DNA of 44,376 nucleotides from Phycisphaerae bacterium (GTDB lineage: Bacteria; Planctomycetota; Phycisphaerae; Tepidisphaerales; Tepidisphaeraceae): positions 1 through 44,376 of the forward strand of contig JAICIO010000042.1 of assembly GCA_025924315.1 (NCBI GenBank). Direction: 5' to 3'. The translations under genes were made by a program, and so were the position numbers. The first letter of the stretch is position 1. Each line of letters begins with the position of its first letter. This document shows positions 2,717 through 38,816 of this stretch, one piece after another. The notes under the pieces were generated by a model. That model worked only from the letters and a program-made list of their open reading frames with translations. It ran no database searches and was not told the origin of the DNA.

Positions 2717-4126
2717 ATGCTGAAATCGCGTTGTCGATGGTTCGCGCTCGCCGTGATCGTCTGCTGTTCGCGCGGTGCGCTGGCGGCGCTGACGGTCGCG
2801 AGCATGTTTTCCGATCACGCAGTATTGCAGGCGGATATGCCTGTGCCCGTGTGGGGACGAGCGGCCGCAGGCGCGAAGATCACCGTGACGTTCGCGAGCG
2901 CGTCGGTCGATGCGACCGCGGATGATTCCGGCAAATGGCGAGCGACGCTTCCCGCGATGCATGCGAGCAAGGACGCCGGCGAGCTCGTCGTCAAATCGGG
3001 CGATGAGTCGAAGAAGTTCAGCGATATTCTCGTCGGCGAAGTGTGGCTCGGGTCGGGGCAATCCAACATGGTCCTGACCATGCCGAAGACATCGGATGCG
3101 GACAAGTACATCGCTCAGGGCGACAATCCGCAGATCCGGTTGTTCATCGTCGGTCGAGTCCCGTCTACTGATCCCGCGGAAAACGTGAAGGGAGAATGGG
3201 TCGTGTGCTCGCCGAAAACACTCCCGCCGTTCTCTGCTGTGCTCTACCACTTCGGACGAAACCTGAACGATCAACTGCATGTGCCGATCGGATTGATCGA
3301 CAGCGCGGTGGGCGGCACGCCGATTCAGGCATGGATGCCCGCGGACACGCTCGGCCCGTCGCCTGCAACACAGCTCAACCCGAAAGGTGTCGCGGTGCCG
3401 GCGCTTCAGCCGGATCATCTCTTCAACGGCATGATCCATCCGCTGATCCCGTACGCCATTCGTGGCGTTGTCTGGTACCAGGGTGAGAACAACGTGCAGC
3501 AGGGCGACCAATCTCAATACGCACACGACTTAAAGCTCATGGTCGATGCGTGGCGCTCGCGATGGCACGAGGGGGATTTCCCCTTTCTGTTCGTTCAGCT
3601 ACCGCCGTTCGGTAAATATCGCTCGGTGCGCACGGCTCTGCCGGAAATGTGGGAGCAGCAGACGCGCGCGCTCACAATGATCCAGAACAGTGCGATGGCG
3701 CCGACGGGCGATCTCGGCGAGCTCGACAACATCCATCCGAAGAACAAGCACGAAGTCGGCCGGCGGTTGTCGCGCATCGCGCTGGTGCGCGTTTATGGGA
3801 AGCCGAGCGAGGTGATCGAAGGCCCGATGTACAAGTCGCACGAGATTGAAGGCAGCACGATTCGGGTGCATTTCACCGGCGTGGGAAGTGGGCTGAAGTC
3901 GCGGGACGATAAGCCGCTGACAAACTTCGAGATCGCGGGCGCCGATGGGGCGTTCGTGCCCGCCGACGCAAAGATCGACGGCGACGATGTCGTCGTGTCG
4001 AGCGACAAGGTGAAGGATCCGACGATGCTTCGATTTGCGTGGGACGAGGCCGCGGTGCCGAATCTGGAAAACAAGGAAGGGCTACCGGCAACGGCGTTTC
4101 GTATTCCTCAGCCGGAGATCCATTGA
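2717..4126 (+). CDS. Sialate O-acetylesterase, SGNH type
   Basis: 469 residues with a signal peptide ending near ALA (residues 21-23). The nucleophile block GQSNM (114-118, Ser116) is followed by WYQGENN, the SASA-family signature. A late DNIHPKNKHEVGRRL segment carries the expected catalytic Asp/His. Beta domains flank the catalytic core, as usual in the family at this length. The enzyme should remove O-acetyl groups from sialic acids or other acetylated sugars outside the cytoplasm. GGAGG lies just before the ATG. The gene follows the glycosidase-like lipoprotein gene by 23 bp and probably shares its transcript. Its 3' end overlaps that of the opposing ABC ATPase gene by 19 bp. Polysaccharide rather than sialic acid may be the real substrate in a planctomycete. 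Confidence 0.88.
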   Translation: MLKSRCRWFALAVIVCCSRGALAALTVASMFSDHAVLQADMPVPVWGRAAAGAKITVTFASASVDATADDSGKWRATLPAMHASKDAGELVVKSGDESKKFSDILVGEVWLGSGQSNMVLTMPKTSDADKYIAQGDNPQIRLFIVGRVPSTDPAENVKGEWVVCSPKTLPPFSAVLYHFGRNLNDQLHVPIGLIDSAVGGTPIQAWMPADTLGPSPATQLNPKGVAVPALQPDHLFNGMIHPLIPYAIRGVVWYQGENNVQQGDQSQYAHDLKLMVDAWRSRWHEGDFPFLFVQLPPFGKYRSVRTALPEMWEQQTRALTMIQNSAMAPTGDLGELDNIHPKNKHEVGRRLSRIALVRVYGKPSEVIEGPMYKSHEIEGSTIRVHFTGVGSGLKSRDDKPLTNFEIAGADGAFVPADAKIDGDDVVVSSDKVKDPTMLRFAWDEAAVPNLENKEGLPATAFRIPQPEIH

Positions 4127-5037
4127 AGCGAGCCGGTGCTGCCGATTGCGATGGGTGAATTGCTCAAGGCGATCGCGCGCTCGCCATGGGGCAACTCCGC
4201 TTCGATCTGCCAGAACCCGCCATTGAAATGACAGCCGCGCACGCGCGCAGCCCCGGAATCGCATGGCACGAATCGCAACTGTTGCGGTCGAACGATCACG
4301 CGGTCGGCCCGATGCGGACAGCCTCGAATGGATTCCGAGCGCATTTCACTCGCCGGCCCGAGCAGCTTCGCGACCGTCAGATTAACCGGCTTGTTATAGA
4401 CGTCCGCCGGCGGACCGATCTGTGCGATGACACCGTCGTGCAGGACGGCGATCTCGTCGCTCAGGCGCATCGCAAGGTCGACCTGATGCGTCGCGAGAAA
4501 AATGCCCGCCGAGGTCGATCGCAATTGAGCGCTGAGCAGGTCGATCAGTCGATCTCTGGCCGGCCCGTCGAGCTGCGAGGTCGGCTCGTCGAGAAAGAGC
4601 CAATGCGGGCGAACGACCAGTGCGCGAGCGAGTGCGAGACGCTGTCGTTCTCCTCCGGAAAGTTCGCCCGGACGGCGCGTCGCGAGATCTTTCAGCCCGC
4701 TTCGGTCGAGCGCATCCCCGATTCGCTGCGCGATTTCGTCGCGAGAGAGCGCGCTCCCGCGCAGAACTGTTTCAAGATGCCGCCGGACCGATAGATGCTC
4801 CCATAGGCCCCCATCCTGAAAGACCATGCCGAAGGACGGTTTGGCTGCTTCGTACGCGATCGTTCCACGATTTGGTTTGAGCAACCCGGCGAGCAGCCAG
4901 AGCAGCGTCGTCTTTCCGCAACCGCTCGGACCAAGGAAAGTAAGGATCCGACCCGCGCGATGTTCGAGCGTGATCCCGCGAAGAATCGGCCGCGGGCCAC
5001 GAGCGAACTGCAGATCGTTCACGGTCACGCGCGACAT
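4108..5037 (-). CDS. Iron-type ABC transporter ATPase
   Basis: 309 residues. The nucleotide-binding domain has Walker A GPSGCGKT (36-43), Q-loop Gln74, signature LSGGE (126-130), Walker B WLFLDEP with D150/E151, and the switch His184 in LATHQ. A TOBE-like C-terminal domain starts around residue 240 (RVIVRPQQLRF). This is the FbpC/PotA/ModC layout. It is the last gene of the HEAT-VWA-transporter operon. Its ATG shares one base with the stop of the permease gene (TGATG at 5035-5039), so translation is probably coupled. It energises the fused permease upstream. Iron(III) is the best substrate guess from the partner proteins; thiamine, phosphonate or another anion remain possible. Confidence 0.88.
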   Translation of the reverse strand: MSRVTVNDLQFARGPRPILRGITLEHRAGRILTFLGPSGCGKTTLLWLLAGLLKPNRGTIAYEAAKPSFGMVFQDGGLWEHLSVRRHLETVLRGSALSRDEIAQRIGDALDRSGLKDLATRRPGELSGGERQRLALARALVVRPHWLFLDEPTSQLDGPARDRLIDLLSAQLRSTSAGIFLATHQVDLAMRLSDEIAVLHDGVIAQIGPPADVYNKPVNLTVAKLLGPASEMRSESIRGCPHRADRVIVRPQQLRFVPCDSGAARVRGCHFNGGFWQIEAELPHGERAIALSNSPIAIGSTGSLQWISG

Positions 5038-6551
5038 CAGCGGATGCTCCTTCGCAGCAGTGCCTGTAGGGTGAGAAAAATGACGACGACCCCAATGACC
5101 ATCAGCAGCAGGTCAACCGCGAGCGCCGACACCACGGCATCCGGTGCGAGGTGAATCAGCGTGTAGAGCCGCACGCCGAGCGTCGTCGGTCCGGGGCGCA
5201 CGAGAATGAGCGAAATGTCGAGCTCGGCAGCGATGAGAAGGGCCGCGAGTCCCATCGAGGCGACTAGTGCGGGGGCGCGCGGGGGAAACGCGATCGACAC
5301 CATGCGGTCGAACCACCGCACGCCGTGCAGTCGCGCCGCGAGATCTGATAATGGAGAGATACGCATCCACGCCAGAAACAGGACGAGCACGATCACGGGT
5401 GTGAAGCGTGCGACGTAGCCGAGGATCAGCGGAAGTTCCGTGTCCAAGATTCCTTGAACGGGTCGCGGGCTGAACAGCGTGATCAGGCCGAGTGCGAGCA
5501 GCGATCCGGGCACCACGAGATTGATCAGCAGCGACCAGATGCTGGCGGATCGTCGCGCTGTCGTCGCGAGTGGGATGCTTACGAGAAGTGTGATCGCTGC
5601 GCCGATCGTCGAAAGCCACACGCTGTGGAATGCCTCCTGCTGACTCTCCATAAAAGAAGCCGCGAGGTTCGACCACGTTGCCGATCGCACGACAAGGCCT
5701 GTCAGCGGAATTCCGACCGCGATCGCGATTGTGACCACGGCGACGGGCCAGGCGCGCCCGCTCGGCTCGGAATCACTTTCGCGAGAGAGAGTCCATGATC
5801 GACGCTGAAGCAATCGCGTGATCACCATCGCCAGAACGAGCGAAACAACAGCCGGCAGAATCGCCAGCACTGCGGCGCCTGCGGGATTCATCAGGGCGTT
5901 GTATTGGATCAACACTTCTGTGCCGAAGGTGTGAATGAGGAACAGGCCGGGAAGAATGTGATCGGAGAAGACGAGAATCAGCAGTAGCGCGGCGGTTGCG
6001 ACGAGCGGCGCCGTGAGCGCGGATCGCGTCAGTCGCAAACGCTCTCGCCACGAGAGGTCGAAGATCGACTCGGCAGCGCGCGACGAGCGAGTTGCGGTGT
6101 GAACGTTCGCCAGGATCAACGCCGCGATTCCGAAGTAACGGAGACCCGTGGCCCCGGCGGCGATCGGCCAGTTGTAGATCGTCGGTGTGTGCGAGCCGAG
6201 GACCCTGCGAAGTTGGTTGGTGACAACCGCGTCCGTGCCCATCGCCATGAGCCAGCCAACCCCCATCAGCGACGACGGGACGAGGATCGGCAGACACGCG
6301 AGCATCAACAGAATCCGCGAACCGAATCGATTGCGTGGGAGAGAAAAGGCGACGATGACGCCGAAGACAAGCGCGACGGTCGCCCCGAATGCGGAGAATC
6401 CGACGCTCGTGGCGAGGATCTTCCATCCGCGGACATCTCGCCACCAGTAGGCCCATTCGCCGAGCCCGCTCTGCGTCAACGTCATCGCGAAGCTTGCGAG
6501 CACAGGAAGGAGGATCAGGACAAGCAACATGCGCGTGAGCCAGCGGTTCAT
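5037..6551 (-). CDS. Fused two-domain ABC permease, FbpB-like
   Basis: 504 residues from the ATG at 6551, which overlaps the stop of the binding-protein gene by four bases (ATGA). Two homologous permease halves, each with about six membrane segments, are fused. The first covers about residues 1-250 and contains the cytoplasmic loop AAESIFDLSWRERLRLT. The second covers about 270-504 and contains the loop SDLAARLHGVRWFDRMVSIAFPP as its EAA-like motif. Such duplicated permeases are typical of iron(III) (FbpB/AfuB) and thiamine (ThiP) importers. A much longer upstream reading frame exists but lies inside the binding-protein gene and is discarded. Operon position and overlaps tie it to the ATPase and the lipoprotein on either side. 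Confidence 0.87.
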   Translation of the reverse strand: MNRWLTRMLLVLILLPVLASFAMTLTQSGLGEWAYWWRDVRGWKILATSVGFSAFGATVALVFGVIVAFSLPRNRFGSRILLMLACLPILVPSSLMGVGWLMAMGTDAVVTNQLRRVLGSHTPTIYNWPIAAGATGLRYFGIAALILANVHTATRSSRAAESIFDLSWRERLRLTRSALTAPLVATAALLLILVFSDHILPGLFLIHTFGTEVLIQYNALMNPAGAAVLAILPAVVSLVLAMVITRLLQRRSWTLSRESDSEPSGRAWPVAVVTIAIAVGIPLTGLVVRSATWSNLAASFMESQQEAFHSVWLSTIGAAITLLVSIPLATTARRSASIWSLLINLVVPGSLLALGLITLFSPRPVQGILDTELPLILGYVARFTPVIVLVLFLAWMRISPLSDLAARLHGVRWFDRMVSIAFPPRAPALVASMGLAALLIAAELDISLILVRPGPTTLGVRLYTLIHLAPDAVVSALAVDLLLMVIGVVVIFLTLQALLRRSIR

Positions 6552-7588
6552 TGGCCCACCTTGGACTGTTGCAGAAGATCGATGAGTTCCTTGCGATGCG
6601 CCGCGATGGATTTCACATCGAGCGGTTGAGGCGTGGCTTCGGCGAGCAGCTTCGCCCAAGGTGTGTGAACATCTTTCAGATCCGATCCAAGCGGAATCTG
6701 CGCCCCGGGCATCGCCGCGAGCTTTCGCTCGACTTCCGGCGAAAGCAGATAATCGATCAATGCCTTCGCCTCCGCTGGATGCGCCGCGTTTTGAGTGAGC
6801 GCGACGGTGTTCGGAATGAGCACGGCGCCGGTTGCCGCGTCCGGGATGAGAATCGCGATTGGCTTGTGTTCGAGGATGGCGTTGTTGGCATCGTCGGTGT
6901 CGGTGAGGCCGAAGCTTCGCTCGCCCGAAGCGACGAGATCGCGCACCGCGCCGTTTCCCGGCGCGATGGCGCATGCGTTGTCGGCGAGATCATCGAGCCA
7001 GCGTTTCAGCTTCTCATCACCCCACCGTTCGCGAAGTACGCCGACGTGCGTGAACGTCGTGCCGTAGTATGGCTGTGCAATCGCGCCTTGACCGTGATAT
7101 TTCGCGTCCGTGAACGTGGACAACTCCGCGGGCGGAGGCGACGCCGGGAATCTTTTGGTGTTGTAAATGAAGACGCGCAGGCGCGCGGCGAAGCCGGTCC
7201 AGCGAAGCTGGGGATCGCGGTATTGCGCCGGGATGCGGTGCGCCGCGGGGCTGTCGTACGCGGCGAGCAGGCCCATCTGCGCGAGCGACTCCGTCTGCAC
7301 GATTTCATTGTTCCACAGGACATCGCACTCGGGATTGTCCTTTCGCGCGATGAGCCGATTGATCAGCCCAGTCGTCTTCGCGGATTCAGCATCGTAGACG
7401 GGCTCGACATGAATACCGGTCTGCTGCTCGAATGCTTGAAGAATGGGTTCGGAATAAATGCGATCGAGTGCAGTAAAGATCACGACGCGGCGCTCGGGTG
7501 ACGCGTGCGCGGATTGTTCGCGGCGCGAGCAGCCTGTGAATGTCGCGAGCGCAATCAGGCAAAATGCGATGCGGAAGCGGTGAATCAT
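6548..7588 (-). CDS. Iron-type ABC substrate-binding lipoprotein
   Basis: 346 residues. A lipoprotein signal with lipobox FTG before Cys20 anchors it in the membrane. The mature protein starts with RRVVIFTALDRIYSEPIL, the first strand and helix of family 1 binding proteins. Later blocks include DVLWNNEI, the PYYGTTFTHVG segment, and GNGAVRDLVASGE followed by GLTDTDD, all seen in the FbpA/FutA/AfuA iron-binding group. The adjacent tyrosines in PYYG are candidate metal ligands, by inference only. The ATG overlaps the stop of the VWA gene (ATGA at 7585-7588) and the TGA overlaps the permease ATG. It should capture the transported ligand for the fused permease. Confidence 0.85.
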   Translation of the reverse strand: MIHRFRIAFCLIALATFTGCSRREQSAHASPERRVVIFTALDRIYSEPILQAFEQQTGIHVEPVYDAESAKTTGLINRLIARKDNPECDVLWNNEIVQTESLAQMGLLAAYDSPAAHRIPAQYRDPQLRWTGFAARLRVFIYNTKRFPASPPPAELSTFTDAKYHGQGAIAQPYYGTTFTHVGVLRERWGDEKLKRWLDDLADNACAIAPGNGAVRDLVASGERSFGLTDTDDANNAILEHKPIAILIPDAATGAVLIPNTVALTQNAAHPAEAKALIDYLLSPEVERKLAAMPGAQIPLGSDLKDVHTPWAKLLAEATPQPLDVKSIAAHRKELIDLLQQSKVGQ

Positions 7589-9093
7589 TTCTTGGGCTGC
7601 GCGTATTGATCGACGATCGCCTGGACGTCCTGCTCGTAGCGCTGGCCGAACATCGAGACGATGAGGTGACGCCAGAAGGCCTGGTCTTCCGCGAGGAGAA
7701 ACGCGGAGCCGTTGCCGTTCTCCGCGATGTGTTTCAGGTCCGGCAGGACATTTTCGCGGACGCGCTTTCCGCCGGCGAACCCGCCGGTGTCGATGACATT
7801 GATTTCCCCGCCGACTTGTTTCGCGAACGCGCTCGCGAGGCTGTAAGCGGCGTCGCGCCCGGTCCCGTGAACCGGCGCGTCAGTGACAAGAATGATGACG
7901 TTGTGCCGGCGGCGGTTCCAGCCCATGTGACTGTCGGTCGCGACGCGAAGGGCCTGGTCGATCGGCTCGGGAATGTCTCCACCTCCGCCGGCCATGACTT
8001 CATCGAGCGCGGATTGCAGCTTCTTCGTGTCGTTCGTGAGCGGAAGTGCCTTGGTCGCGCCGACGCCGTAGTCGTCGCCGTAGTCTTTAAATGCGACGAG
8101 GCCGAAACGAATCGGTGCGAGATGCGTCGCATTGTTTGTGGCACCGCTTGCGCCAAGCATTGTGTTGACGATCGACACGATCTCGCCGAAGCGTTTCTTG
8201 CTTTCCTCGATGTACGGCCCCATCGATTCGGTCGCGTCGAGTACGAAGCAGACATCGAGCCCGCGGGAGCGGATGTCGCGAAGCACGTCGTCCATTCCTG
8301 AATTGACGACCTGGATCGAAGAAGCCGCGGCGGAAGGAGCGTCGGCGACGAGCGAGTTCGCGATTGCAAGGATCGGATCGACTTGATCGCAAGAGGAGTC
8401 GACGATCGACGCGGTCGTTGGTTTGGCGGCCGCGTCATGGCCGAGCGGGCTGGCGGAGAACTGCTTCGCCAAATCCTGGTATTGCTGCGGGTCGCGCACG
8501 CGTGTGTTTTCCAGGCGCTCCAGCCAATAGAGTCGCTGCAGTGACATGAGTGTAGGAGAAAGATTCCTCAGCTTGGCGCTGTTCAGGTCGAGGATGACGG
8601 GATCGAGCACCTGATCCGCCCGTGGGACCATTCCCATGTCGCGAAGAACGCGCGATTCGCCCGCGTAACCCGCGGCGGCGGCGGGAATCTCGCGGTACAC
8701 GACACGCACCGACCGATAGAGCGCCGCGGACTTCTGAAGGAAGTTCTGCCTCGCCTTATCGTTCGCGGGAAGCGCGGCGCCGGCTCGGTGATTCAGCTCT
8801 GCTTCGAGCAGATCGAGGCGACACGCGATCGCGCGCTTGGCAGGATCGGTCGGCGCGGATTTGTCCAGCCCCGCCTGTTTCCTCAATGCGGAGATCGCTT
8901 CCATCGCGTTGGTGAAGATGGTTTGGACTTCTTTCGCGCTGTTCGATGTGCTGCTCAAACTGGAAATGGCCGAGGTAATCGCATCGTTGAGCGCCGATGC
9001 GGCGGTGACGCGCTGCGCATGCACAGGCAGGGCGAATGCTCCCGCCACAATCGCAATGCAAATCGCGATGTGAAGAAGGCGAGTGTGTTTCAA
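7585..9093 (-). CDS. Exported von Willebrand factor A domain protein
   Basis: 502 residues from a TTG at 9093. This start gives a clean signal peptide (basic KHTR, then a hydrophobic stretch to VHA) and a TTGA overlap with the upstream stop, matching the overlaps elsewhere in this operon. A GTG at 9114 is the alternative. After an alpha-helical region (about 30-270) comes a VWA domain with the MIDAS motif DATES (286-290), a GGGGDIPEP segment supplying the Thr/Asp region, and LVTDAP. The conserved set suggests metal-dependent ligand binding, though Ser2 of the usual DxSxS is Thr. VWA proteins act as adhesion or assembly modules. Coupling to a HEAT protein and an iron-type importer suggests an envelope complex. 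Confidence 0.85.
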   Translation of the reverse strand: MKHTRLLHIAICIAIVAGAFALPVHAQRVTAASALNDAITSAISSLSSTSNSAKEVQTIFTNAMEAISALRKQAGLDKSAPTDPAKRAIACRLDLLEAELNHRAGAALPANDKARQNFLQKSAALYRSVRVVYREIPAAAAGYAGESRVLRDMGMVPRADQVLDPVILDLNSAKLRNLSPTLMSLQRLYWLERLENTRVRDPQQYQDLAKQFSASPLGHDAAAKPTTASIVDSSCDQVDPILAIANSLVADAPSAAASSIQVVNSGMDDVLRDIRSRGLDVCFVLDATESMGPYIEESKKRFGEIVSIVNTMLGASGATNNATHLAPIRFGLVAFKDYGDDYGVGATKALPLTNDTKKLQSALDEVMAGGGGDIPEPIDQALRVATDSHMGWNRRRHNVIILVTDAPVHGTGRDAAYSLASAFAKQVGGEINVIDTGGFAGGKRVRENVLPDLKHIAENGNGSAFLLAEDQAFWRHLIVSMFGQRYEQDVQAIVDQYAQPKK

Positions 9094-11201
9094 CGCCAGG
9101 TATCCCCAAAGCACGGAATCAGATACGCGAAGAGAAACTCATTCGCATATTCTTTCAATGGTACCGCTGGATCGTCACGAACGGTGAAGTTCGTCTCCGC
9201 GATGAGGCGCGTCAGTCGCGTCGGCTGCTCCTTCGCAAGAAGTTCGCCCAGCGCCTGTGCCATGTACGCCTGCTCCTTGGGATCTTTCGAGGTGCGCAAT
9301 CGATCCATGATCGGCTTGGCCGTTCCGGTCGCCCCGACGAGCTTGAGCGCGATGATCACCTCGCGGTTGACCCAGTAGTTGAGATGCCATGCTTGCGTGA
9401 GGATCGGCACGACGGCGCTGCTTTTCATCACGCCAAGTGCCAGCACTCCTGCGCGGCGCGAGAGAATCCCGGACGTTGATGTCTCATCGCCTTGGCGCAC
9501 GAGCAAACCGGTCGCCGGCTCCAGCAGATTGTGATCGCCGGCGAGCGCTCGGCCGAGGAGTAGAAAGCCGTAGAGCAGCTCGTCGGTGTTGCGCTGCTTC
9601 AGGTTGAGCTTTTGCGTCGTCTTGATCATCGCCGGGAGCGCTTCGGTGCGATGGCTCAGACCAAGAGCGACGGCGCAGGCGCACCGCGTTTCGAGGTTGT
9701 CCTGTTGATCGTCGAGCCGCTCGGCCAGCGCGATCAGTGCGTTCTGATAATCCGGACGATCCGCCGGGCCGGAGGGCGTGTCGTAGGTCTGGGCGTACAT
9801 TCCCAGCGCGAGCGCAGCGAAGCCGCGCGTGGGATCGCCGGGCGCGCCTTCGAGCTGCATTTTGCCTTGCTGATCTTTCTTGCCGAGCAGCAGGATCAGT
9901 TTGTCGCGCGTCTGCTCGTTCGCGTACGTCGGCAGCGCCATGATCGAGAAATCGCGCGGGGCGAACATGTACTCGTCGGCGGAGGGGTCGAGAAATTGCA
10001 CGAGCGCATCGCGCGCGTCCTCACGATTGGTATGCCCAAGCGCAATCGCCGCCGACGTGCGCAGCTCGCCTGTGAGAATCTGCTCTTCGCCAATGAACGT
10101 CGGTGGAAGCGCGACGACTTGGCCCCTTTGCAGCGGCGCCGCCGCGTTCGGATTCCGCTTTTGGTAAGCCTGATATTGTTTGAGGTAGCTGTTGTAAGCG
10201 CGGTCGTACTGCTGCTGCCGTGTGCCTTGGGTCGCGCGATTATTCGCCGCCGCGGACTTCTGCCGGGAGACCTGATCGAGAATGTTCCACGATGCGATCT
10301 CGTTAATTGCCGTCGCATCACCGTTGAGCATTTTCGCCAGCGCGGGCGTGGAATCGGGTGAAGCGCCGAGCGCCGTGATCGCTTCGGATGCGACCCACGG
10401 ACTCTCGTTGTTCCAGATGATGCCCTGATAAAACTTCATATCGTCGGGCACGGGATGCTGCCGCAGCGCCCAGCAGAGCATCGTCGCGGTTTGCGCATCG
10501 GCGGTGGTGACTCTGTTTTTCTGGATCGCGCCGTGAAGCTGATTGTCATTGCCCTGCGTGCCTTGGTTCACCGGAGCCTGCATCGCGGGCGCAAGCGCCG
10601 CCTGCAGACTCGCGATGGTTGAAGGCTGAATCGTCGGCAACAGTCCCAGCGCGGTGATGGCGGCGAGGCGATCGTCTGTCGTCGTTGGGTTGAAGGCGAG
10701 AATCTGAATCTCGGCTTCCGGTCCCCCAATCAAACCGAGGGCGACAAGAGCCGCGCGCCGAACGCGCTGCGATTTGCTCTTAGCCGCCTCGGCCGCGAGC
10801 AACGGAATCGCGGTGCGATATTGAATCTTTCCGATCGCGAGCGTCGCCTGTTCGACGAGCGATTCGTCGCTGCCCTTCTCAATCACCTCGAGCAGCAATC
10901 GGACGGCCTCTATGCGCACGGGATCGGACTCTTGCGTCGCGGGAACTTGCTGCGTGGTTGCGATGGGTTCGGTCGTTGAACGAACGGATTGCGCCGGCGG
11001 CGGTTGGAGAAACCGATCGCGGTTTGCTTCCCACCAATGCACCCAAGACCACCGCGGAGGAGGAATCGTGCGGAAGGTATCGCCTGTCAGGATGTGCGGA
11101 ATCGGCGGAGGAACCGGAGTTTCACCGTTGTGCGCAAGAACTGGCCGGCCGACGCACAGCAGCACCGACAACGCAAGCAGGGTGCGATTCGCGGGCGACA
11201 T
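9090..11201 (-). CDS. Exported HEAT-repeat protein
   Basis: 703 residues with a signal peptide ending near VLA (residues 20-22). A proline-rich, Trp-rich segment follows (RWSWVHWWEANRDRFL, about 49-64). From about residue 95 onward the protein is made of helical HEAT-like repeats (for example RIEAVRLLLEVIEKGSD, RAALVALGLIGG, SAAIALGHTNREDARDALVQFL, CACAVALGLSHR). There is a Gln/Tyr-rich insertion near the middle. It is probably a periplasmic protein-binding scaffold. It is the first gene of the operon, and its TGA overlaps the TTG start of the VWA gene. Its partner is not known; the divergent cytochrome also has a HEAT-like segment. Confidence 0.83.
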   Translation of the reverse strand: MSPANRTLLALSVLLCVGRPVLAHNGETPVPPPIPHILTGDTFRTIPPPRWSWVHWWEANRDRFLQPPPAQSVRSTTEPIATTQQVPATQESDPVRIEAVRLLLEVIEKGSDESLVEQATLAIGKIQYRTAIPLLAAEAAKSKSQRVRRAALVALGLIGGPEAEIQILAFNPTTTDDRLAAITALGLLPTIQPSTIASLQAALAPAMQAPVNQGTQGNDNQLHGAIQKNRVTTADAQTATMLCWALRQHPVPDDMKFYQGIIWNNESPWVASEAITALGASPDSTPALAKMLNGDATAINEIASWNILDQVSRQKSAAANNRATQGTRQQQYDRAYNSYLKQYQAYQKRNPNAAAPLQRGQVVALPPTFIGEEQILTGELRTSAAIALGHTNREDARDALVQFLDPSADEYMFAPRDFSIMALPTYANEQTRDKLILLLGKKDQQGKMQLEGAPGDPTRGFAALALGMYAQTYDTPSGPADRPDYQNALIALAERLDDQQDNLETRCACAVALGLSHRTEALPAMIKTTQKLNLKQRNTDELLYGFLLLGRALAGDHNLLEPATGLLVRQGDETSTSGILSRRAGVLALGVMKSSAVVPILTQAWHLNYWVNREVIIALKLVGATGTAKPIMDRLRTSKDPKEQAYMAQALGELLAKEQPTRLTRLIAETNFTVRDDPAVPLKEYANEFLFAYLIPCFGDTWR

Positions 11202-11296
11202 GTGGAGTACAACGGTTTGGACCCGCCTCCCTTAGAATTTTTTCACAGTGCCTAAGAAATGCTAGACTTGGCTCGTCAACCACGCAAGGGAATTCC
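11202..11296. promoter_or_regulatory. Shared divergent promoter region
   Basis: This 95 bp gap separates the divergent HEAT-VWA-transporter operon and the cytochrome gene, so it should hold both promoters. It contains TTTGG then ACCCGCCTCCCT then TAGAAT (11216-11238), closely matched by the sequence just upstream of the PyrK-like gene at 19770-19794. Downstream, AAGGGA at 11285-11290 is a good ribosome-binding site for the GTG at 11297. No confident -35 box was found. Confidence 0.45.
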
Positions 11297-12760
11297 GTGT
11301 CGCCACCTCGCGTTCGCGCCGCCATCGTTCTGTTCGTGATTGCGATTGTGGCGGGGTCGTTTTTTCTAATTGTATTTCGTCGGTCATCGGGACGAATGGT
11401 CCAGCCGCCGCGCGGGATCGATGCGCTTCTCGTCGATGCGGAGGCCGGCAATGAGCGCGCGGTGCGCGAGCTGATCGACGAATTGAACGATCACGCGCAA
11501 GCGGCGAACGAAGCGCTCCTCGGGCGGATGCTGCAAAGCAACCAGGCGCTGGTGCGCGCGGCGGCGTGTACAACGATCGGCCGCGAGAACGATAAAGAAT
11601 TCTCTGCGGCGCTGTTCTGCCGGTTGAGCGACGACGACTGGCGCGTTCGCGCTGCCGGGTTTGAAGCCCTGCACAACCTCGGCGGCGAAGCGCTCAAGTT
11701 CGATTCTCCGCTCCGCGATACCCCGGTCGAAGTACGCGAAAACACAATCCTGGGCATCCTTTCCCAGTGGCGCAGGAAGTCGGATTCGCTCCCGAAGCTT
11801 CCGCAGAGTTGCGAGCTCTATCCGACACTGAAGCACTGGCTCGCGGGGCCGGTGCTGACGGAAACGTGTCTCTCGTGTCACGCACCAACGCAACAGACGT
11901 ACAGCTCTGCGACGCGGTGTATGAGCTGCCATGCACCGATTCATAAGACATGGTTTGCCTCCGCCCATTCGCGAAGTGTGTCGCATCTGCCGCTGGCGCG
12001 CGTCGATCCGGTGACGAAGCACGTGGTGCTGTGGAACTACGGAGCGCGCGAGGGGATGGATTGCCTCGTTTGCCATCGCGAAGCAAGCGCGAGTCTGACG
12101 AGCGCTAACGTTTCGCCGGTTGAACCTCCGCTCGCGCCGTCGCGGCATCGGTTCGATCGATCCAAGCCCGCGTCGCAGTCGTGTGCGGCTTGTCATTCGG
12201 AAACGCAGCAGCAATGGGAAACGTGGCAAAGCCATCCGCGACCGCAGAAGGCGGCTTGGCCGCCGGGGGCGCTCGAGTGGGTGACGACTACGGAGGCGCC
12301 GGCTTGCGTCGATTGTCACATGCGGCAGATCGTGACGCCGATCGATCGAGCGCTGCCGCATAGCTTCAACGCTCGGCGAAACACGGACATGCTCAAGGGC
12401 GGACTGGATGTTCGCGTCGATCCACCGAACCACGAGCATCCCGCGCGCGTCGTTCTCACCAATCTCGCCGGTCACAGCTATCCTGCGGGGACGCATCGGC
12501 GATCGCTCCGCGTGGAGGTTCAGTACGACGATGATCCGAAGACGCGAGTGTTGCTCGCGCGTCTGAAGGTAAAAGATCCCGTTCCCGCGACGCAACCGTA
12601 TCAACCCGTGCTCGGTTCGGGTGAAGAGCGAACGATCGAAATCCCAGCGCGCGAGAACGCTTCGACGGTGACATGTGATGTGACGTACGAGCGGAACGCG
12701 TACGTGGACGTCGGTTACGAAGTGACCCTCGCGCACGTGACGCAGAGGCTTCACGACTAG
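11297..12760 (+). CDS. Membrane-anchored HEAT and pentaheme cytochrome c
   Basis: 487 residues from a GTG at 11297 (AAGGGA six bases upstream). One membrane segment spans about residues 8-27. HEAT-like helices (about 40-160, for example RVRAAGFEALHNLGG) follow. Five CxxCH heme-attachment motifs lie at 191, 208, 256, 296 and 337. The C-terminal part is a beta-rich domain (RVVLTNLAGHSYPAGTHRRSL) also found in multiheme cytochromes of the c554/NrfA-like group. Extra histidines (AHSRSVSH, HSFN) are candidate axial ligands. It should be an envelope electron carrier. Placement opposite an iron-type importer hints at a link to metal redox, but nitrite or other acceptors are equally possible. It ends in a palindrome facing dinB. 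Confidence 0.85.
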   Translation: MSPPRVRAAIVLFVIAIVAGSFFLIVFRRSSGRMVQPPRGIDALLVDAEAGNERAVRELIDELNDHAQAANEALLGRMLQSNQALVRAAACTTIGRENDKEFSAALFCRLSDDDWRVRAAGFEALHNLGGEALKFDSPLRDTPVEVRENTILGILSQWRRKSDSLPKLPQSCELYPTLKHWLAGPVLTETCLSCHAPTQQTYSSATRCMSCHAPIHKTWFASAHSRSVSHLPLARVDPVTKHVVLWNYGAREGMDCLVCHREASASLTSANVSPVEPPLAPSRHRFDRSKPASQSCAACHSETQQQWETWQSHPRPQKAAWPPGALEWVTTTEAPACVDCHMRQIVTPIDRALPHSFNARRNTDMLKGGLDVRVDPPNHEHPARVVLTNLAGHSYPAGTHRRSLRVEVQYDDDPKTRVLLARLKVKDPVPATQPYQPVLGSGEERTIEIPARENASTVTCDVTYERNAYVDVGYEVTLAHVTQRLHD

Positions 12761-12844: not shown

Positions 12845-13999
12845 TCACTTCGGTCGCACGCCGCGACCGATTGTGCGCTTTTGGAACTTCTGGTTGATCT
12901 GATCCGCGACCGCGTCGAGCTTCTTTTGCCGCTCGCGCTCGGGATCGGTGAACAGCGGCATCTGCTCGTCACCACTCGAGAGTCGCTCGGCGCTCACGCC
13001 GATCAATCGCACGGGTTGAAATGGCCATTCGTTAAATACATCCCGCGCCGCCTGCCACAATTCCTGCGTGCTGTTCGTGCTCGTGGCGAGCGTTCGCGAG
13101 CGCGTGATCGTTTGGAAATCACCGTAGCGGATCTTCAGCGAAATCCCGCGGGCCTGAATGCCGTGCTTGCGCAACCGCTGCGCGACGTGTTCAACCTGGT
13201 CCATCAGCACGACGCGAATCTCGTCCGGATCGGCGACGTTGACCTCGAAGGTTTGTTCGTGGCCAATGCTCTTCGCATCGCGATCGGGTGTAACGACGCG
13301 GTGATCGATGCCATGCGCGAGGTTCCAATATCGCTCCGCCTCGGAACCAAGATGTCGCTCGAGTAATTCACGCGGAACACGGCGAAGATCCGCAATCGTG
13401 CGGATGCCGACCGATTCAAGCTTCGCTTCCGTCACACGGCCGATGCCCCAGAGCTTCGACACCGGCAGCGGCGGAAGAATGTGATCCACGTCCTCTGCGT
13501 GGACAATGGTTAATCCATCCGGTTTCTCAAGATCGGATGCGAGCTTTGCGAGGAACTTGTTCGGCGCGACGCCAATCGACGCTGTGAGCTTGGTCTCGTC
13601 GCGAATGCGCTTCTTCATCCGCCGCGCGACTGCTTCAGGCGCGCCTTGCAGTCGCTCGGTTCCATTGAGATCGAGAAACGCTTCATCGACGCTGAGCGGT
13701 TCGACGAGCGGTGAAAACTCATCGAAGATCGCGAAGACGCGATCGGACATTTCGAGATAGCGATGCATGCGCACGGGGACGATAATCGCCTGCGGGCATA
13801 AACGCTTGGCGATGGCCATTGGCAGGGCGGATCGACAACCAAACTTTCGCGATTCGTACGAAGCCGCCGCGACGACCCCGCGCGGGCCGTCGTGGCCAAC
13901 GAGTACCGGCTTCCCGCGCAACGACGGATTGTCGAGCTGTTCGACCGACGCAAAGAACGCGTCCATGTCCACATGAAGAATGCTGCAGGCCGAATCCAC
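12845..13999 (-). CDS. dinB: DNA polymerase IV (Y family)
   Basis: 384 residues from a GTG at 13999; the first in-frame ATG lies inside the catalytic motif and is too late. The palm motif DMDAFF (11-16) and SVDEAFLD (103-110) supply the three catalytic acidic residues. A YESRKFG segment lies in the fingers (48-54). LWGIGRVTEAKL is the helix-hairpin-helix of the thumb, followed by the little-finger domain. Near the C-terminus, QMPLF (346-350) matches the beta-clamp binding motif. Length and motifs are those of a complete Pol IV, which copies past lesions with low fidelity. No LexA-type operator was recognised upstream. Confidence 0.95.
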   Translation of the reverse strand: MDSACSILHVDMDAFFASVEQLDNPSLRGKPVLVGHDGPRGVVAAASYESRKFGCRSALPMAIAKRLCPQAIIVPVRMHRYLEMSDRVFAIFDEFSPLVEPLSVDEAFLDLNGTERLQGAPEAVARRMKKRIRDETKLTASIGVAPNKFLAKLASDLEKPDGLTIVHAEDVDHILPPLPVSKLWGIGRVTEAKLESVGIRTIADLRRVPRELLERHLGSEAERYWNLAHGIDHRVVTPDRDAKSIGHEQTFEVNVADPDEIRVVLMDQVEHVAQRLRKHGIQARGISLKIRYGDFQTITRSRTLATSTNSTQELWQAARDVFNEWPFQPVRLIGVSAERLSSGDEQMPLFTDPERERQKKLDAVADQINQKFQKRTIGRGVRPK

Positions 14000-18891: not shown

Positions 18892-18929
18892 CGGGCTCGC
18901 CACGCGGTTCCTAATTTGGCAGGGACAGT

Positions 18930-19002
18930 GGGCGATGAGGGGCTCGAACCCCCGACCTCACGGGTGTGATCCGTGCGCTCTAGCCAGCTGAGCTAATCGC
19001 CC
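18930..19002 (-). tRNA. tRNA-Val (CAC)
   Basis: Read on the minus strand, the acceptor arm GGGCGAT pairs with ATCGCCC. The D arm is GCTC/GAGC and the anticodon stem CACGG/CCGTG encloses the loop ATCACAC with anticodon CAC. The T arm loop is TTCGAGC. Total length is 73 bases with no encoded CCA. The anticodon reads GUG, so this is valine. Confidence 0.95.
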
Positions 19003-28924: not shown

Positions 28925-29127
28925 TCACGCGCCTCGAAAGCCGCGCGGCGCGGGGAAATCTTGCCGATGTTTCACGGCTTGAGTGCGGTCGGATCCACCG
29001 TACTCGACGCGCGAAGCGGAATGAGGATAAGCACCTGCAGCGCCCGCTGTGTCAGGCGACATACCTGATGGCGAACCGATTCTCATGACGATGAGAGATT
29101 GGTGTGGGCGTCTCGGAGAATCTCCTG
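28925..29127 (+). other. Structured 200 bp leader of transport locus
   Basis: No gene is seen. Possible hairpins are TCAGGCGACATACCTGA (29055 region), CCGATTCTCAT/ATGAGAGATTGG (29078-29104) and GGAGAATCTCC (29115-29125), the last covering the ribosome-binding site. It does not match a riboswitch I know, but the length and structure would suit regulation. Confidence 0.35.
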
Positions 29128-30489
29128 ATGAACGGCCGTCCTTCTGTTGTATATCAATCGCTTCTGAGCCTTGGGTTGCTCGTGTTCGCCAGCGTGGCTT
29201 CGCATGCATCGGCGGCGCTCATTGATGCTGCCGTGAAGGCATCGACCGACGGCGCGACGATCCGCGCGGTGATCGTTCCGTTCATTCAGCAACAAGTCGC
29301 GAACTTGCAAAAGGACGACCCGGCCGCGCAGTCCGCCGCGCGAGATGCGCTTGCGGCCGAGGCCGGCGGTGGAAATCAAAAAGGCCCATCCGTTTTCTAT
29401 CTCGACAGCTACGCAGACGAGCTTAACAAGCAGCTTCTTCCGGTGATGAAGAACCCGAACTGGCGCGTTCGCCTCAGCGCCGCCATTACCGCCGCACGCG
29501 TTGCTCAGGCGGCGCAGACTTCGCGTCTGGCCGACGTCGCGTCCGCGGCGCTCGACGATCAGTCCGACGCCGTCGTCGTTTGCGGACTCGAAATCGCCCG
29601 CTACACGATCCCGAGCATCGCGAGCAACCCAGGGGCGAAAGATTCGCTGATGCCGAAGGTCGTCGCGCTCGTCACCAAGCGCCCGACCGCGACGTTCACG
29701 CAATACGGCTACAACGCGCTGTCGCTCGATCTGATCGAGATGGCGAAGGTTCGCCCATGGACGCCGCAGCAGTGGACGACAGCGCTGTCGCATGTGATTC
29801 CTGGCATACAGGAGATCTTCCGAAAACGGCTGGACGAGTACGCCAATGGGGTGCCGGATGATCCCCAGCAGGAACGGCGTGCCGCACTGATCCTCACGCA
29901 TCAGCTCGCATGGGCGGCGCAGGCGCTGCATCCGCCGGAGCAGCAGGTGACGCTGCAGTTGCTCGTGGATCTGATGTCGTTCGCGTCGCAGCGCGCGGTG
30001 ACCGCGAAGGATAACCAGACCCGCGATCAGCTGATCGAACTCGTGTCGTACACCGCCAGCGCGATTGGCGTGACGGGCGACCCGCAGCTTACGGCTGCGG
30101 TTTCGCCGCTGGAGAGATTCCCGCGCGGCACGCCCGCCGAGACTGTCGCTCAGTCAGTACAGGCCGCCATTCAGGCGATCCGAACGAACCAGCCCGGGGT
30201 GAAAGCTCCGCCGGCGGTTCGCGCCGTTGCCGTCGAGATCAAGCCGAAGACCGGGCCGTCTACCGAGCAATCGATTCTGCCGCAATCGTCCACCAAGCCG
30301 GTGATGTCCTCGCCGATTGGACCGACAACACTGCCCGCGGGCACCGGTGGCGCCGCGCCGCGCACGACGCCGACGACACCGCCGCCGGGCTCGCACCCGA
30401 CGAACGCGCCCAAGACCGGCGCGGGTGGCGCCGGTCACGCCGATGCTTCGCGCGCCGGCTTCTTCCGTTCACCTGACCCGCTCGGTTAA
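29128..30489 (+). CDS. Exported ARM/HEAT-like protein, unknown
   Basis: 453 residues from the ATG at 29128, with GGAGA about nine bases upstream; a GTG at 29104 is the alternative. A signal peptide ends near ASA. The body is Ala-rich and helical, with HEAT-like pairs such as WRVRLSAAITAARVAQAA, LADVASAALDDQSDAVVVCGLEIARY and QLLVDLMSFASQRAV. The C-terminal 120 residues are low-complexity, rich in Pro, Thr and Gly (TTPTTPPPGSHPTN), and end FFRSPDPLG. Nine bases after its stop comes the first peptide-binding protein gene, so it heads the transport locus. Function unknown. Confidence 0.75.
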   Translation: MNGRPSVVYQSLLSLGLLVFASVASHASAALIDAAVKASTDGATIRAVIVPFIQQQVANLQKDDPAAQSAARDALAAEAGGGNQKGPSVFYLDSYADELNKQLLPVMKNPNWRVRLSAAITAARVAQAAQTSRLADVASAALDDQSDAVVVCGLEIARYTIPSIASNPGAKDSLMPKVVALVTKRPTATFTQYGYNALSLDLIEMAKVRPWTPQQWTTALSHVIPGIQEIFRKRLDEYANGVPDDPQQERRAALILTHQLAWAAQALHPPEQQVTLQLLVDLMSFASQRAVTAKDNQTRDQLIELVSYTASAIGVTGDPQLTAAVSPLERFPRGTPAETVAQSVQAAIQAIRTNQPGVKAPPAVRAVAVEIKPKTGPSTEQSILPQSSTKPVMSSPIGPTTLPAGTGGAAPRTTPTTPPPGSHPTNAPKTGAGGAGHADASRAGFFRSPDPLG

Positions 30490-30498
30490 AGTCTGGCA

Positions 30499-32196
30499 AT
30501 GCTTCGTCTGCTGGTCATTCCTCTCGCGCTGCTGATCCTTCTCGCGGGCGCGATGGCATGGTCCGGCTCGGCCGCGGAAAAACGCGCCGACTTCACCTTC
30601 GTTTCCATCCGTGATGTCTACACCCTTGATACGAACCAGATGTCGTATCTGCAGGATTTTCGCCTCGCATATTGCATCTGGGAAGGTCTCTACTCGTACG
30701 ACGGCATGACGCTCAAACCGATTCCCGGCGTCGCGTCCTCTTGCGACGTCAGCGCGGACAAGCGCGTCTTCACATTCCACCTGCGACCCGAAGCCGTATG
30801 GAGCAACGGCGATCCCGTCACCGCGCACGACTTCGCGTTCGCGTGGCGGCGCATGCTCGAATCGCCCGGTGAGTACACGTACCTGCACTACTACATCAAA
30901 GGCGCCGAGCCGTACCTTCAGGCGTACCAGGCATATCTCAAAGATCCGCAGCACACTCCAAAGCCTGACTTCAAAACCGTCGGCGAACAGGTGATCGACG
31001 ATCACACGTTCAAGGTGACGCTCAGCGATCCGGTGACGTTCTTCTTCGATCTCATGGCCTTTCCGCCGTTCTTTCCGCTGAATCAAAAATCGATGGAGCC
31101 GTTCGCGAAGCGCGATCCTGTCACCGGGAATGTGACCTACGACGGCCGATTCACCCGTCCCGGCGTCGTTGGCAACGGCCCGTTCATCATGACCAAGTGG
31201 GACTTCAAGCGTCGGGTGCGCCTCGCGAAAAGTCCCAGCTATTGGGACCGCGCGAACGTCAAAAGCAATTCAATCGAGATGGTCGTCGTCGAAGATCCGC
31301 TCGGCCAATTCCTCCGCTACGAAGCCGGCGAAGTCGATTGGCTGCCGAACGTTCCATCCGACGTCGGCCCCGAGCTCATCGCCCAACACCGCGAAGATCT
31401 CCGTCTCTTCGGCGGATTCGGAAGCTACTTCCTCTCCTGCATGTCGCAGCCGAAGCTGCACAACGGCCAACCAAACCCGCTTGCAGATATGCGCGTTCGT
31501 CAGGCGCTGGCTATGGGTTTCGATCGCGAGCCGATCGTGAAGAACGTCACGCGCATGGGCGAGAAGCCCGCGTCGACCTACATCCCGCCGGACATTTTCC
31601 CGGGATTCAAAGTCGAACCGGGCTTCACATTTGATCCGGTTCGCGCCAAGAAGCTATTGGCCGAAGCGGGCATCACGGGCAATCGTCTGCCGGGTGTGAG
31701 TTTCCTCGTGCGAAGTTCCAGCCCGGTCGAAGCGAACACGGTTCAAAGCATCGTCAATCAGTGGAAGGCGAACCTCGGCCTCGACATCGACATCGAGCTA
31801 ATCGAATCGAAGATCGCACGGCAGCGCCTCAACGACAAAGATTACGAGATCGCCATCGCCGACTGGATCGGGGATTATCCCGATCCATCCACGTTCACCG
31901 ACAAGTACCGCTCGAACAGCGTGAACAACGATTCCGGCTGGGTGAACCAGGAATACGATTCGCTCCTCGATCAGGCGCAGAAAGAAGCGGATGCGCAGAA
32001 GCGCTATGCGCTGCTCGAGAAGGCGAATCGAATGCTCGACGTCGAAGTGCCGATCATTCCGCTGTACTACATCACCAATCAGTATCTCTTCCGCGACAAC
32101 GTGCGCGGCATCAACCTGAGCCCGCGGAACATGACGATGCTGAAGGGCGTGTGGGTGGATCACGATGAGAAGCTCGTGAGTGGGGGGAACGGCTGA
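30499..32196 (+). CDS. Peptide ABC transporter substrate-binding protein 1
   Basis: 565 residues. An N-terminal hydrophobic segment (LLVIPLALLILLAGAMAW) acts as signal or anchor, and no lipobox Cys is seen. The SBP_bac_5 fold is shown by YCIWEGLYSYDG (about 56-67), FHLRPEAVWSNGDPVTAHDFAFAWRRML and the lobe II segments RQALAMGFDREPIV and YEIAIADWIGDYPDPSTF. It should bind oligopeptides or related ligands. Its TGA shares one base with the ATG of the permease gene (TGATG at 32194-32198). It closely resembles OppA rather than dipeptide-binding DppA in the WSNGDPVTA block. Confidence 0.9.
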   Translation: MLRLLVIPLALLILLAGAMAWSGSAAEKRADFTFVSIRDVYTLDTNQMSYLQDFRLAYCIWEGLYSYDGMTLKPIPGVASSCDVSADKRVFTFHLRPEAVWSNGDPVTAHDFAFAWRRMLESPGEYTYLHYYIKGAEPYLQAYQAYLKDPQHTPKPDFKTVGEQVIDDHTFKVTLSDPVTFFFDLMAFPPFFPLNQKSMEPFAKRDPVTGNVTYDGRFTRPGVVGNGPFIMTKWDFKRRVRLAKSPSYWDRANVKSNSIEMVVVEDPLGQFLRYEAGEVDWLPNVPSDVGPELIAQHREDLRLFGGFGSYFLSCMSQPKLHNGQPNPLADMRVRQALAMGFDREPIVKNVTRMGEKPASTYIPPDIFPGFKVEPGFTFDPVRAKKLLAEAGITGNRLPGVSFLVRSSSPVEANTVQSIVNQWKANLGLDIDIELIESKIARQRLNDKDYEIAIADWIGDYPDPSTFTDKYRSNSVNNDSGWVNQEYDSLLDQAQKEADAQKRYALLEKANRMLDVEVPIIPLYYITNQYLFRDNVRGINLSPRNMTMLKGVWVDHDEKLVSGGNG

Positions 32197-33125
32197 TGGC
32201 TCGCTTCCTCGCCTGGCGGCTCGCGCAGTTTCCGCTCATCCTCGCGATCATTTATCTGATCACGTTTTTCTTCGTATGGGTCGCGCCCGGCAGCCCGTTT
32301 GGGCAGGGCGAGCGACAGCTCAACAAGGATGCGCGCGAAGCGCTCGAGCAGAAGTTTCACGCGCGATCGGCTGCGCAGTTTCTCGAGTACTATCCGAAAG
32401 AAGTAATCTTCCACGGCGACTTCGGCCCGAGCATGCAGTACGCCGAGTGGTCCGTGAACGACATTCTCAAGAGCGCGCTACCGATCTCCGTCGCGCTTGG
32501 ACTCTTCGCCCTCACGATCGGCACGTTGCTCGGCGTATTGATCGGCACGCTCGCCGCCGTCTATCGCGGCGGGCTTTTTGATTGGACGAGCCTTTCCATC
32601 GTCCTCATTGGCATCAGCATCCCGAGCTTCGTGACCGCCGCTTTACTCCTGTCGATCTTCGCGGGCGCATTGCACTGGTTCCCCATCGGCGGATGGGGTT
32701 CGATCCGCGATATGATTCTGCCCGGAATTGCGCTTTCACTCGCGCCGATGGCATACATCGCGCGGCTCACGCGCGTGAGTATGATCGACGTGATCAGCAG
32801 CGATTTCGTCCGCACCGCCCGTGCGAAAGGTCTCTCGCGATCGATCGTGATCTGGAAGCACTGCCTTCGAAACGCGTTCCTCCCCGTCCTGAGCTATCTC
32901 GGTCCCGCGGCCGCGGGAACGCTCACCGGATCGTTCGTCGTCGAAAAAGTCTTCAGCATCCCCGGACTCGGCCAGCATTTCGTCAACAGCATCCAAAACC
33001 GCGACCGCACGCTGATCCTTGGCACGGTGATGGTGTATTCGTTGTTTTTACTAACGTTCAATCTACTTGTGGATATCGGATACGCGCTGGTCGACCCGCG
33101 CGTCGATGTGACGGCGAAAGGTTGA
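32196..33125 (+). CDS. Peptide ABC permease 1, OppB-like
   Basis: 309 residues, usual OppB length. The first membrane segment (LAQFPLILAIIYLITFFFVWV) is followed by a periplasmic loop, then five more segments. The cytoplasmic EAA-type loop is RTARAKGLSRSIVIWKHCLRNAFLPVL, the contact for the ATPases. Together with the OppC-like protein after the palindrome it forms one channel. The start shares a base with the previous stop. A 366 bp nested palindrome separates this gene from its partner permease gene, which is unusual inside an operon. Confidence 0.92.
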   Translation: MARFLAWRLAQFPLILAIIYLITFFFVWVAPGSPFGQGERQLNKDAREALEQKFHARSAAQFLEYYPKEVIFHGDFGPSMQYAEWSVNDILKSALPISVALGLFALTIGTLLGVLIGTLAAVYRGGLFDWTSLSIVLIGISIPSFVTAALLLSIFAGALHWFPIGGWGSIRDMILPGIALSLAPMAYIARLTRVSMIDVISSDFVRTARAKGLSRSIVIWKHCLRNAFLPVLSYLGPAAAGTLTGSFVVEKVFSIPGLGQHFVNSIQNRDRTLILGTVMVYSLFLLTFNLLVDIGYALVDPRVDVTAKG

Positions 33126-33141
33126 GGATGGAAGGAATTTG

Positions 33142-33507
33142 CCCCCTCTCCCTGAACGGGAGAGGGTAGGGGTAGGGGTGAGGGTGAAGCGTGGTAGACG
33201 AGTTGCGCTACTTTCGAACGTAGCGGCAGACGTCATCCTGAGCGAAGCGGAGGATCTCGATATCGAGAGCGAGATTCGATCCCGGGATCCTTCGCTTCGC
33301 TCAGAGCATGTGATCTTTTGGGTGGCGAGGGCATCGTGCCCTCGCATTTGCGGCTATAGCCGCGCTTGCGAGGGCAAGATGCCCTCGCCACCACGTTGAA
33401 AAAATCACACGCTCTCAGGATGACGACCGGAGCGAACTCGCGAGACCGCGCCACTCGACTACCACGCTCGACCCTCACCCTAACCCTCTCCGTTTCGGGG
33501 AGAGGGG
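33142..33507. repeat. Three-layer nested palindrome between permease genes
   Basis: The outermost layer runs from CCCCTCTCCC (33143) to GGGGAGAGGGG (33507), with GGGTAGGGGTGAGGGTGAAGCGTGGTAGACGAG-like left words answered by complements on the right. The second layer has arms CTGAGCGAAGCGGAGGATC (33238-33256) and GATCCTTCGCTTCGCTCAG (33286-33304), plus a distant GTCATCCTGAG/CTCAGGATGAC pair (33232-33242 with 33414-33424). The third layer, 33321-33392, has perfect 14-base arms GGTGGCGAGGGCAT and ATGCCCTCGCCACC. No gene is visible in it. The ribosome-binding site of the next gene begins 14 bases after its end. Confidence 0.8.
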
Positions 33508-33532
33508 ACGAGGAAGACGAAGAGGATTTGAT

Positions 33533-34498: not shown

Positions 34499-34532
34499 GC
34501 AACTGATTGACGAGTTCTGAATAAGGACATTC

Positions 34533-36368: not shown

Positions 36369-36381
36369 TTCGAGCCCGCGC

Positions 36382-38683: not shown

Positions 38684-38685
38684 TT

Positions 38686-38803: not shown

Positions 38804-38816
38804 GAAATGAATTCAG

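Follow-up and report, generated by a model that had tools for sequence, protein, structure and literature searches.

A planctomycete gene cluster joining a vWA motor module, an ABC importer and a pentaheme cytochrome, and its probable motor-less version in a Phycisphaerae genome

The window analyzed in this work, a stretch of 44,376 nucleotides (positions 1-44,376 of contig JAICIO010000042.1, assembly GCA_025924315.1; genome 96.8% complete, in 262 contigs), contains a six-gene locus at positions 4108-12760. Five overlapping minus-strand open reading frames (ORFs), coding for an exported HEAT-repeat protein, a VWA-domain protein and the three components of an ATP-binding cassette (ABC) importer, face a divergent plus-strand gene for a pentaheme cytochrome. 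Taken as a whole, the locus is, on balance, best explained as a derived, motor-less version of a ten-gene envelope system conserved in planctomycetes. Two parts of this explanation can be stated far more firmly: the HEAT protein, the ExbB/ExbD motor, the VWA protein, the importer and the cytochrome almost certainly form a conserved composite unit, and there is hardly any doubt that the window sequence as given has lost the motor.

The complete cluster was found in relatives of the source genome. When the VWA, binding and HEAT proteins of the window were used as queries against 60 related genomes, the same cluster was detected only in G044 and G046, which belong to two other families of the class; there, the homologues of the N- and C-terminal parts of the window VWA protein lie about 4.3 kb apart. 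The two loci (L066 and L067) share one order, namely the divergent cytochrome, then HEAT-TPR-ExbB-ExbD-ExbD-VWA-binding lipoprotein-permease-ATPase, with a TPR protein of about 850 aa, a VWA protein bearing an N-terminal transmembrane (TM) helix, and additional genes identified by Pfam as ExbB (PF01618) and two ExbDs (PF02472). When a VWA alignment was searched against 84,980 species genomes, leaving aside matches weaker than about 1e-40 as other VWA proteins, 12 loci were recovered and annotated with profiles built in this analysis. All ten genes in one order are present in seven loci (L066, L067, L103, L104, L105, L111 and L112; the ATPase gene of L066 is split by an assembly gap), and three more (L106, L113 and L126) show the same order up to contig ends that truncate them. 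The gene order is therefore more than chance, as at least nine distant genomes repeat it with the same gene families. Genes follow each other end to end, mostly with overlaps of 1-4 nt, across families of the class; a 4-nt HEAT/TPR overlap is possible in every locus holding both genes, and in five of them (L067, L103, L104, L105 and L112) TTG serves as the TPR start codon at this overlap. A search for this neighbourhood across genomes had been proposed in an earlier reading made from the letters of the window (hereafter the sequence-only reading), and the search confirmed the conservation of both order and overlaps in relatives.

The same reading had also held that the HEAT and VWA proteins, the importer and the divergent cytochrome form one unit, and co-occurrence bears this out. 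Of 397 genomes from the class, 171 carry a protein of the binding-protein family (E<=1e-60), 11 the VWA protein (E<=1e-40) and eight the cytochrome (E<=1e-20); seven of these eight also carry the VWA protein, with a hypergeometric p of 9e-12 that ignores relatedness and the use of several genomes as seeds. The cytochrome gene stands divergently beside the HEAT gene in 10 of the 11 loci showing that side, the exception being G445, where it is located on another contig (L113/L141). From this placement and the co-occurrence, we conclude that the cytochrome belongs to the unit. The proposal that the unit consists of an envelope scaffold and an importer only did not hold, since relatives add TPR-ExbB-ExbD-ExbD and their VWA protein is a membrane-anchored transducer. 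In a tree of 35 binding proteins, the 11 cluster-associated sequences form one clade (100/99), within which the window protein is sister to that of L067 (99/88) and nested inside the motor-bearing group; loss of the motor is thus a derived state. Importers that have a related binding protein and lack the HEAT and VWA genes, a pattern akin to what the sequence-only reading had named as evidence against itself, are common, as the binding-protein and VWA counts indicate; those examined, however, belong to other binding-protein clades, whereas the orthologous clade is always accompanied by the cluster.

The genes and features of the window locus are as follows; the five end-to-end overlapping minus-strand genes and the cytochrome gene diverging from them over 95 bp agree exactly, in coordinates and overlaps, with the sequence-only reading.

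4108-5037, minus strand: ABC ATPase (P0001), with Walker A GPSGCGKTT, signature LSGGE and Walker B LFLDEP
5037-6551, minus strand: two-domain permease (P0002), a homologue of the permease of complete clusters along almost its entire length
6548-7588, minus strand: binding lipoprotein (P0003) of FbpA/AfuA-type fold, with TDTDDA where FbpA has N-x-Y-Y
7585-9093, minus strand: fused TPR-N::VWA protein (P0004, about 500 aa), with a signal peptide and without a TonB-like TM anchor
7597-8277, minus strand: VWA domain of P0004 (residues 273-499), about 45-53% identical to relatives, with the metal ion-dependent adhesion site (MIDAS)-like DATESM retained
8278-8427, minus strand: linker of P0004, which must hold the deletion junction; relatives have about 3.9-4.3 kb at the same place
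8428-8931, minus strand: TPR-N part of P0004 (residues ~55-222), scoring 67 bits against a 12-sequence TPR profile
9090-9093, minus strand: TTGA overlap, the same 4-nt overlap as at the HEAT/TPR junction of complete clusters
9090-11201, minus strand: exported HEAT-repeat protein (P0005), with an RWSW(V/I)HWWEANRD signature behind the signal peptide
11202-11296, no strand: divergent intergenic region of 95 bp, between the HEAT start at 11201 and the cytochrome GTG at 11297
11297-12760, plus strand: membrane-anchored HEAT/pentaheme cytochrome (P0006), with a GTG start, an N-terminal TM helix and HEAT_2 at residues 73-131
11867-12319, plus strand: five CxxCH heme motifs of P0006, invariant in relatives

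From the ATPase side to the HEAT gene, the minus-strand overlaps measure 1, 4, 4 and 4 nt (TGATG, ATGA, ATGA and TTGA). Every remaining ORF is open, and the ATPase and MIDAS-like motifs are intact. Pfam assigned ABC_tran to P0001 (with TOBE_2 below the cut-off), SBP_bac_8/6 to P0003, VWA_2/VWA_4 to P0004, HEAT_2 to P0005, and Cytochrome_C7/MtrC-like together with HEAT_2 to P0006; the permease P0002 gave no Pfam match. The best NCBIfam equivalogs of the ATPase, PhnT2 and PotA, are far below the cut-off. A sigma-70-like site was looked for in the divergent region and not found. The Rfam scan near the cluster (first 20 kb of the window) found no riboswitch or other element, its single match being a minus-strand tRNA gene at 18929-19002 (RF00005, 61 bits).

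The loss of the motor is recorded in the structure of P0004. The sequence-only reading had described it as an exported VWA protein; the VWA domain and the signal peptide stand, but the protein is in fact a composite of two genes, in which the N-terminus of a TPR protein is joined in frame to a VWA domain, the two being encoded separately in intact relatives. An independent sign of the fusion is the TTGA between the HEAT gene and the supposed VWA gene, which is the conserved HEAT/TPR junction. Compared with relatives, the window lacks ExbB, both ExbDs, about 600 TPR residues and the part that anchors the VWA protein in the membrane, a missing stretch of about 3.9 kb relative to L067 and about 4.3 kb relative to L066. 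The VWA domain itself belongs to the same subfamily as in cluster relatives, by its identity and its MIDAS-like motif; the TM helix with Ser and His four positions apart (S-x3-H), found in all 14 full-length VWA proteins of relatives, is absent. Relocation of the motor elsewhere in the genome was considered and rejected, as the single ExbB match lies in a different ExbB-ExbD-ExbD-TPR cluster. That other cluster (L123, contig C191 of the source genome, 3408-8261) contains no VWA gene.

The motor module of the relatives is of the kind described as vWA force transducer systems of the Planctomycetota-Verrucomicrobiota-Chlamydiota (PVC) group, which comprise a TPR protein, a TolQ-like protein, two TolR-like proteins and a vWA protein (PMC12204202, Mol Biol Evol 2025). 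These systems were put forward in 2025 on the basis of sequence and structure prediction, with no function attached, and the paper suggests gliding for them. The relatives share with them the genes and order of the motor module, a TonB-like TM helix with S-x3-H, a C-terminal VWA domain, two different ExbDs and a TPR partner. Unlike them, the complete clusters also encode an entire ABC importer, a HEAT protein and a pentaheme cytochrome, partners that do not appear in the section and figure legend of PMC12204202 consulted here. The window differs further by the lack of ExbB, both ExbDs and the S-x3-H (SHLS-type) anchor, so that the TPR-tolQ-two tolR-vWA synteny is seen only in intact relatives. 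In the open-licence literature, no paper was found that connects a vWA motor module with an importer of the ABC type, with a HEAT protein or with a multiheme cytochrome, nor any described counterpart of the complete ten-gene machine; the system as a whole thus appears to be undescribed, as the sequence-only reading had supposed. The conserved association of a vWA motor with an ABC importer and with a pentaheme cytochrome provides a concrete, testable hypothesis for the task of this motor.

Other known systems resemble parts of the unit. The relatives share with TonB-ExbB-ExbD and TolA-TolQ-TolR the ExbB/TolQ and ExbD/TolR homologues, with the proton Asp kept in all their ExbD1 and ExbD2 proteins, and the transducer helix with its Ser and His; they differ by a VWA domain in place of the TonB/TolA C-terminal domain and by the lack of a receptor gene nearby, and the window has no motor at all. 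No TonB domain was found by Pfam in the VWA protein of the window or of L067, where the VWA domain stands instead. With FbpABC/FutABC, the importer shares the fold of the binding protein, a two-domain permease and one ATPase; the extra envelope and redox components set it apart, as do the replaced iron ligands discussed below. A reading as a defence system was rejected, having no PADLOC support: the PADLOC models (Zorya and others) gave no matches for the ExbB, ExbD, VWA, TPR and HEAT proteins, only generic ATPase matches. A search of phage families also gave no matches.

Across nine members, the cytochrome shows no variation in its five CxxCH motifs or at several Trp, His and Arg positions. 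The profile of its C-terminal part matches the pentaheme cytochrome c552 of Thermochromatium tepidum (5ze8; 1.4e-19) and MccSep of the ExtKL/MccSep type (1.4e-10); the window protein differs from these in having an N-terminal TM helix and HEAT-like repeats ahead of the heme part. It is also unlike OmcA/MtrC, which have ten hemes, against five CxxCH motifs in the window and seven relatives. Its predicted structure (predicted local distance difference test, pLDDT, 66) gave 5ze8 as the one convincing fold match and is too poor for a detailed fold assignment.

For the binding lipoprotein, the AlphaFold2 model is of high quality (pLDDT 92.3), and the FbpA-type fold named by the sequence-only reading was recovered; its assignment as an iron importer fared less well. 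The model matches the ferric binding proteins FutA1, cFbpA and HitA with Z of about 35, and P5PA, AfuA, a 2-aminoethylphosphonate receptor and MctA with Z of about 30-35, over about 300 residues. P5PA binds pyridoxal phosphate, AfuA sugar phosphates (hexose-phosphate receptors also belong to the fold family) and MctA metal citrate. As ferric, P5PA, AfuA and 2-aminoethylphosphonate receptors match nearly equally, the fold does not pick the ligand. The residues H9, E57, Y195 and Y196 of FbpA, which we take to be its iron ligands, are those mutated in the iron-site variants listed in PDB titles. In the alignment, the N-terminal ligand His of FbpA/FutA corresponds to Asp42 of P0003, and N-x-Y-Y corresponds to T-D-x-D-D in the window and in nearly all members of the system, so that the Tyr pair is replaced by Asp-Asp. 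An FbpA-type ferric site in P0003 was rejected on these grounds, and the alignment makes binding of ferric iron in the FbpA manner unlikely; the three carboxylates would favour a divalent metal or an amine over Fe(III) bound together with a synergistic anion.

These observations lead to a model of the complete system. An ExbB/ExbD proton channel motor would use the proton motive force to drive the inner-membrane-anchored VWA arm, which would pull on or open an outer partner and so let the ligand reach the binding lipoprotein, with the HEAT and TPR proteins as periplasmic solenoids that hold the parts together. The cytochrome would oxidize or reduce either the ligand or its carrier, and the ABC transporter would then import the ligand. 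The complete system is most likely a redox-linked uptake system by this model; that the motor assists the uptake is a plausible but tentative proposal. Compared with relatives, the window would have undergone a deletion of about 4 kb that fused the first ~220 TPR codons with the VWA domain. This would leave a TPR-VWA protein, soluble in the periplasm, beside the HEAT protein, the cytochrome and the importer, that is, an importer with periplasmic accessory proteins and no force transduction. The fusion protein, being soluble, could not attach to a motor in the manner known, which would leave it only a periplasmic role; a functional motor-less importer is the likeliest reading of what the window encodes, at somewhat below even odds. 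Rather doubtful is the broader proposal of a new class of uptake machines, in which a proton-driven VWA transducer in place of TonB, with HEAT/TPR scaffolds and a pentaheme cytochrome, would capture a redox-active surface ligand for a dedicated ABC importer, some lineages having become motor-independent through a TPR-VWA fusion. The cluster points to a motor-assisted route of uptake, distinct from TonB, in planctomycetes, and the copy in the window, a natural variant without the motor, can serve for comparison.

Several observations weigh against the explanation of the window as a motor-less version of a conserved uptake system. The fused TPR-VWA gene was seen in one genome only, and two other genomes carry internal deletions that clearly break the operon. 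In G501 (L140, contig C139, 8792-15750), the divergent cytochrome and HEAT genes are followed by a frameshifted TPR gene and an in-frame fusion of the N-terminal part of ExbB to the C-terminal part of the permease, and ExbD, VWA and the binding protein are absent; in G524 (L124, contig C113, 8018-9973), the VWA gene directly precedes a permease gene with an internal deletion and a frameshift, the binding protein being missing. Because of these deletions, the operon is either prone to deletion and loss or repeatedly misassembled from metagenomes, and the window copy may likewise be decaying or misassembled, a remnant or mis-join of a locus that truly or ancestrally has the motor, with an in-frame fusion that does not function. 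The fragmentation of the assembly and the one-in-three chance of an in-frame joining are in keeping with this account. It is nevertheless fairly unlikely in our judgement: of the deleted copies, that of the window alone has all its remaining frames open, its 1-4 nt overlaps and catalytic motifs are kept, and the flanking polymerase IV gene (12845-13999), 73% identical to that of G015, a member of the host family, speaks against a contig of wholly foreign origin. Contamination of the bin was rejected for the same reason, and the contig looks genuine.

Other points concern the link between motor and importer. Three loci (L107, L109 and L110) carry only TPR-ExbB-ExbD-ExbD-VWA amid unrelated genes, without importer, HEAT protein or cytochrome, so that the link is not obligatory; in strain syqfu, too, the motor module is all that is present; and no outer-membrane receptor or other shared gene flanks the 11 loci, save one generic oxidoreductase, the rest of the genomes not having been searched for receptors. 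Such motor-only loci would fit an importer for a small organic ligand (an amine, phosphonate or sugar phosphate), whose motor and cytochrome neighbours serve another envelope task, such as surface force or gliding, and stand beside it for regulatory reasons. The fold family, with its 2-aminoethylphosphonate, pyridoxal phosphate and hexose-phosphate receptors, agrees with this, as does the gliding suggested for vWA transducers in PMC12204202. The end-to-end gene order with its short overlaps across families, together with the single clade of cluster binding proteins, argues for a joint function instead, and we consider such an arrangement unlikely. Less likely still is a self-contained ferric-iron importer, as proposed by the sequence-only reading, in which the HEAT and VWA proteins form a periplasmic scaffold handing Fe(III) to the lipoprotein with assistance from the cytochrome. 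Ferric binding proteins are the best sequence and fold matches of P0003, and a multiheme cytochrome could reduce iron; set against this are the His and Tyr-Tyr ligands, replaced by Asp and Asp-Asp throughout the clade, the nearly equal fit of the P5PA, AfuA and 2-aminoethylphosphonate receptor folds, the best NCBIfam equivalogs, which are 2-aminoethylphosphonate receptors (84 bits, far below the cut-off of 310), and the divergent promoters of the window and of five relatives, in which no match to a Fur box exceeded shuffled sequences. The derived, motor-less version of the conserved ten-gene system therefore remains our preferred explanation of the window.

None of the 25 other genomes sampled from the host family has the cluster, and its closest copy is in G046, while the polymerase IV gene is of the host family; horizontal acquisition of the cluster is thus likely from these comparisons. 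The source genome contains a second binding-protein copy, which belongs to another clade (L068, contig C44, 6794-16001). At L068, and also at L142, L143, L144, L146, L147 and L149, the binding protein and permease genes are accompanied by an NHL beta-propeller gene and one or more genes for large membrane VWA/GATase1_like proteins; such paralogous clusters occur in several families of the class and contain no ExbB or ExbD. Binding proteins of this group are thus found beside VWA proteins in two distinct arrangements, which points to a functional connection of this importer type with VWA proteins. The neighbours of stand-alone importers gave no clue to the substrate. A second binding protein and permease pair, again of another clade, was observed just downstream of the complete cluster at L111 (16304-19897), and L125 (G650, contig C77, 8143-10345), where neither ExbB nor TPR lies upstream of ExbD-ExbD-VWA, has the look of an incomplete motor module. 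Elsewhere in the window (29104-41089), a double ABC cluster of the oligopeptide type, with two binding proteins (30499-32196 and 34533-36368), four permeases and two ATPases, comes after an exported HEAT-like protein (29104-30489).

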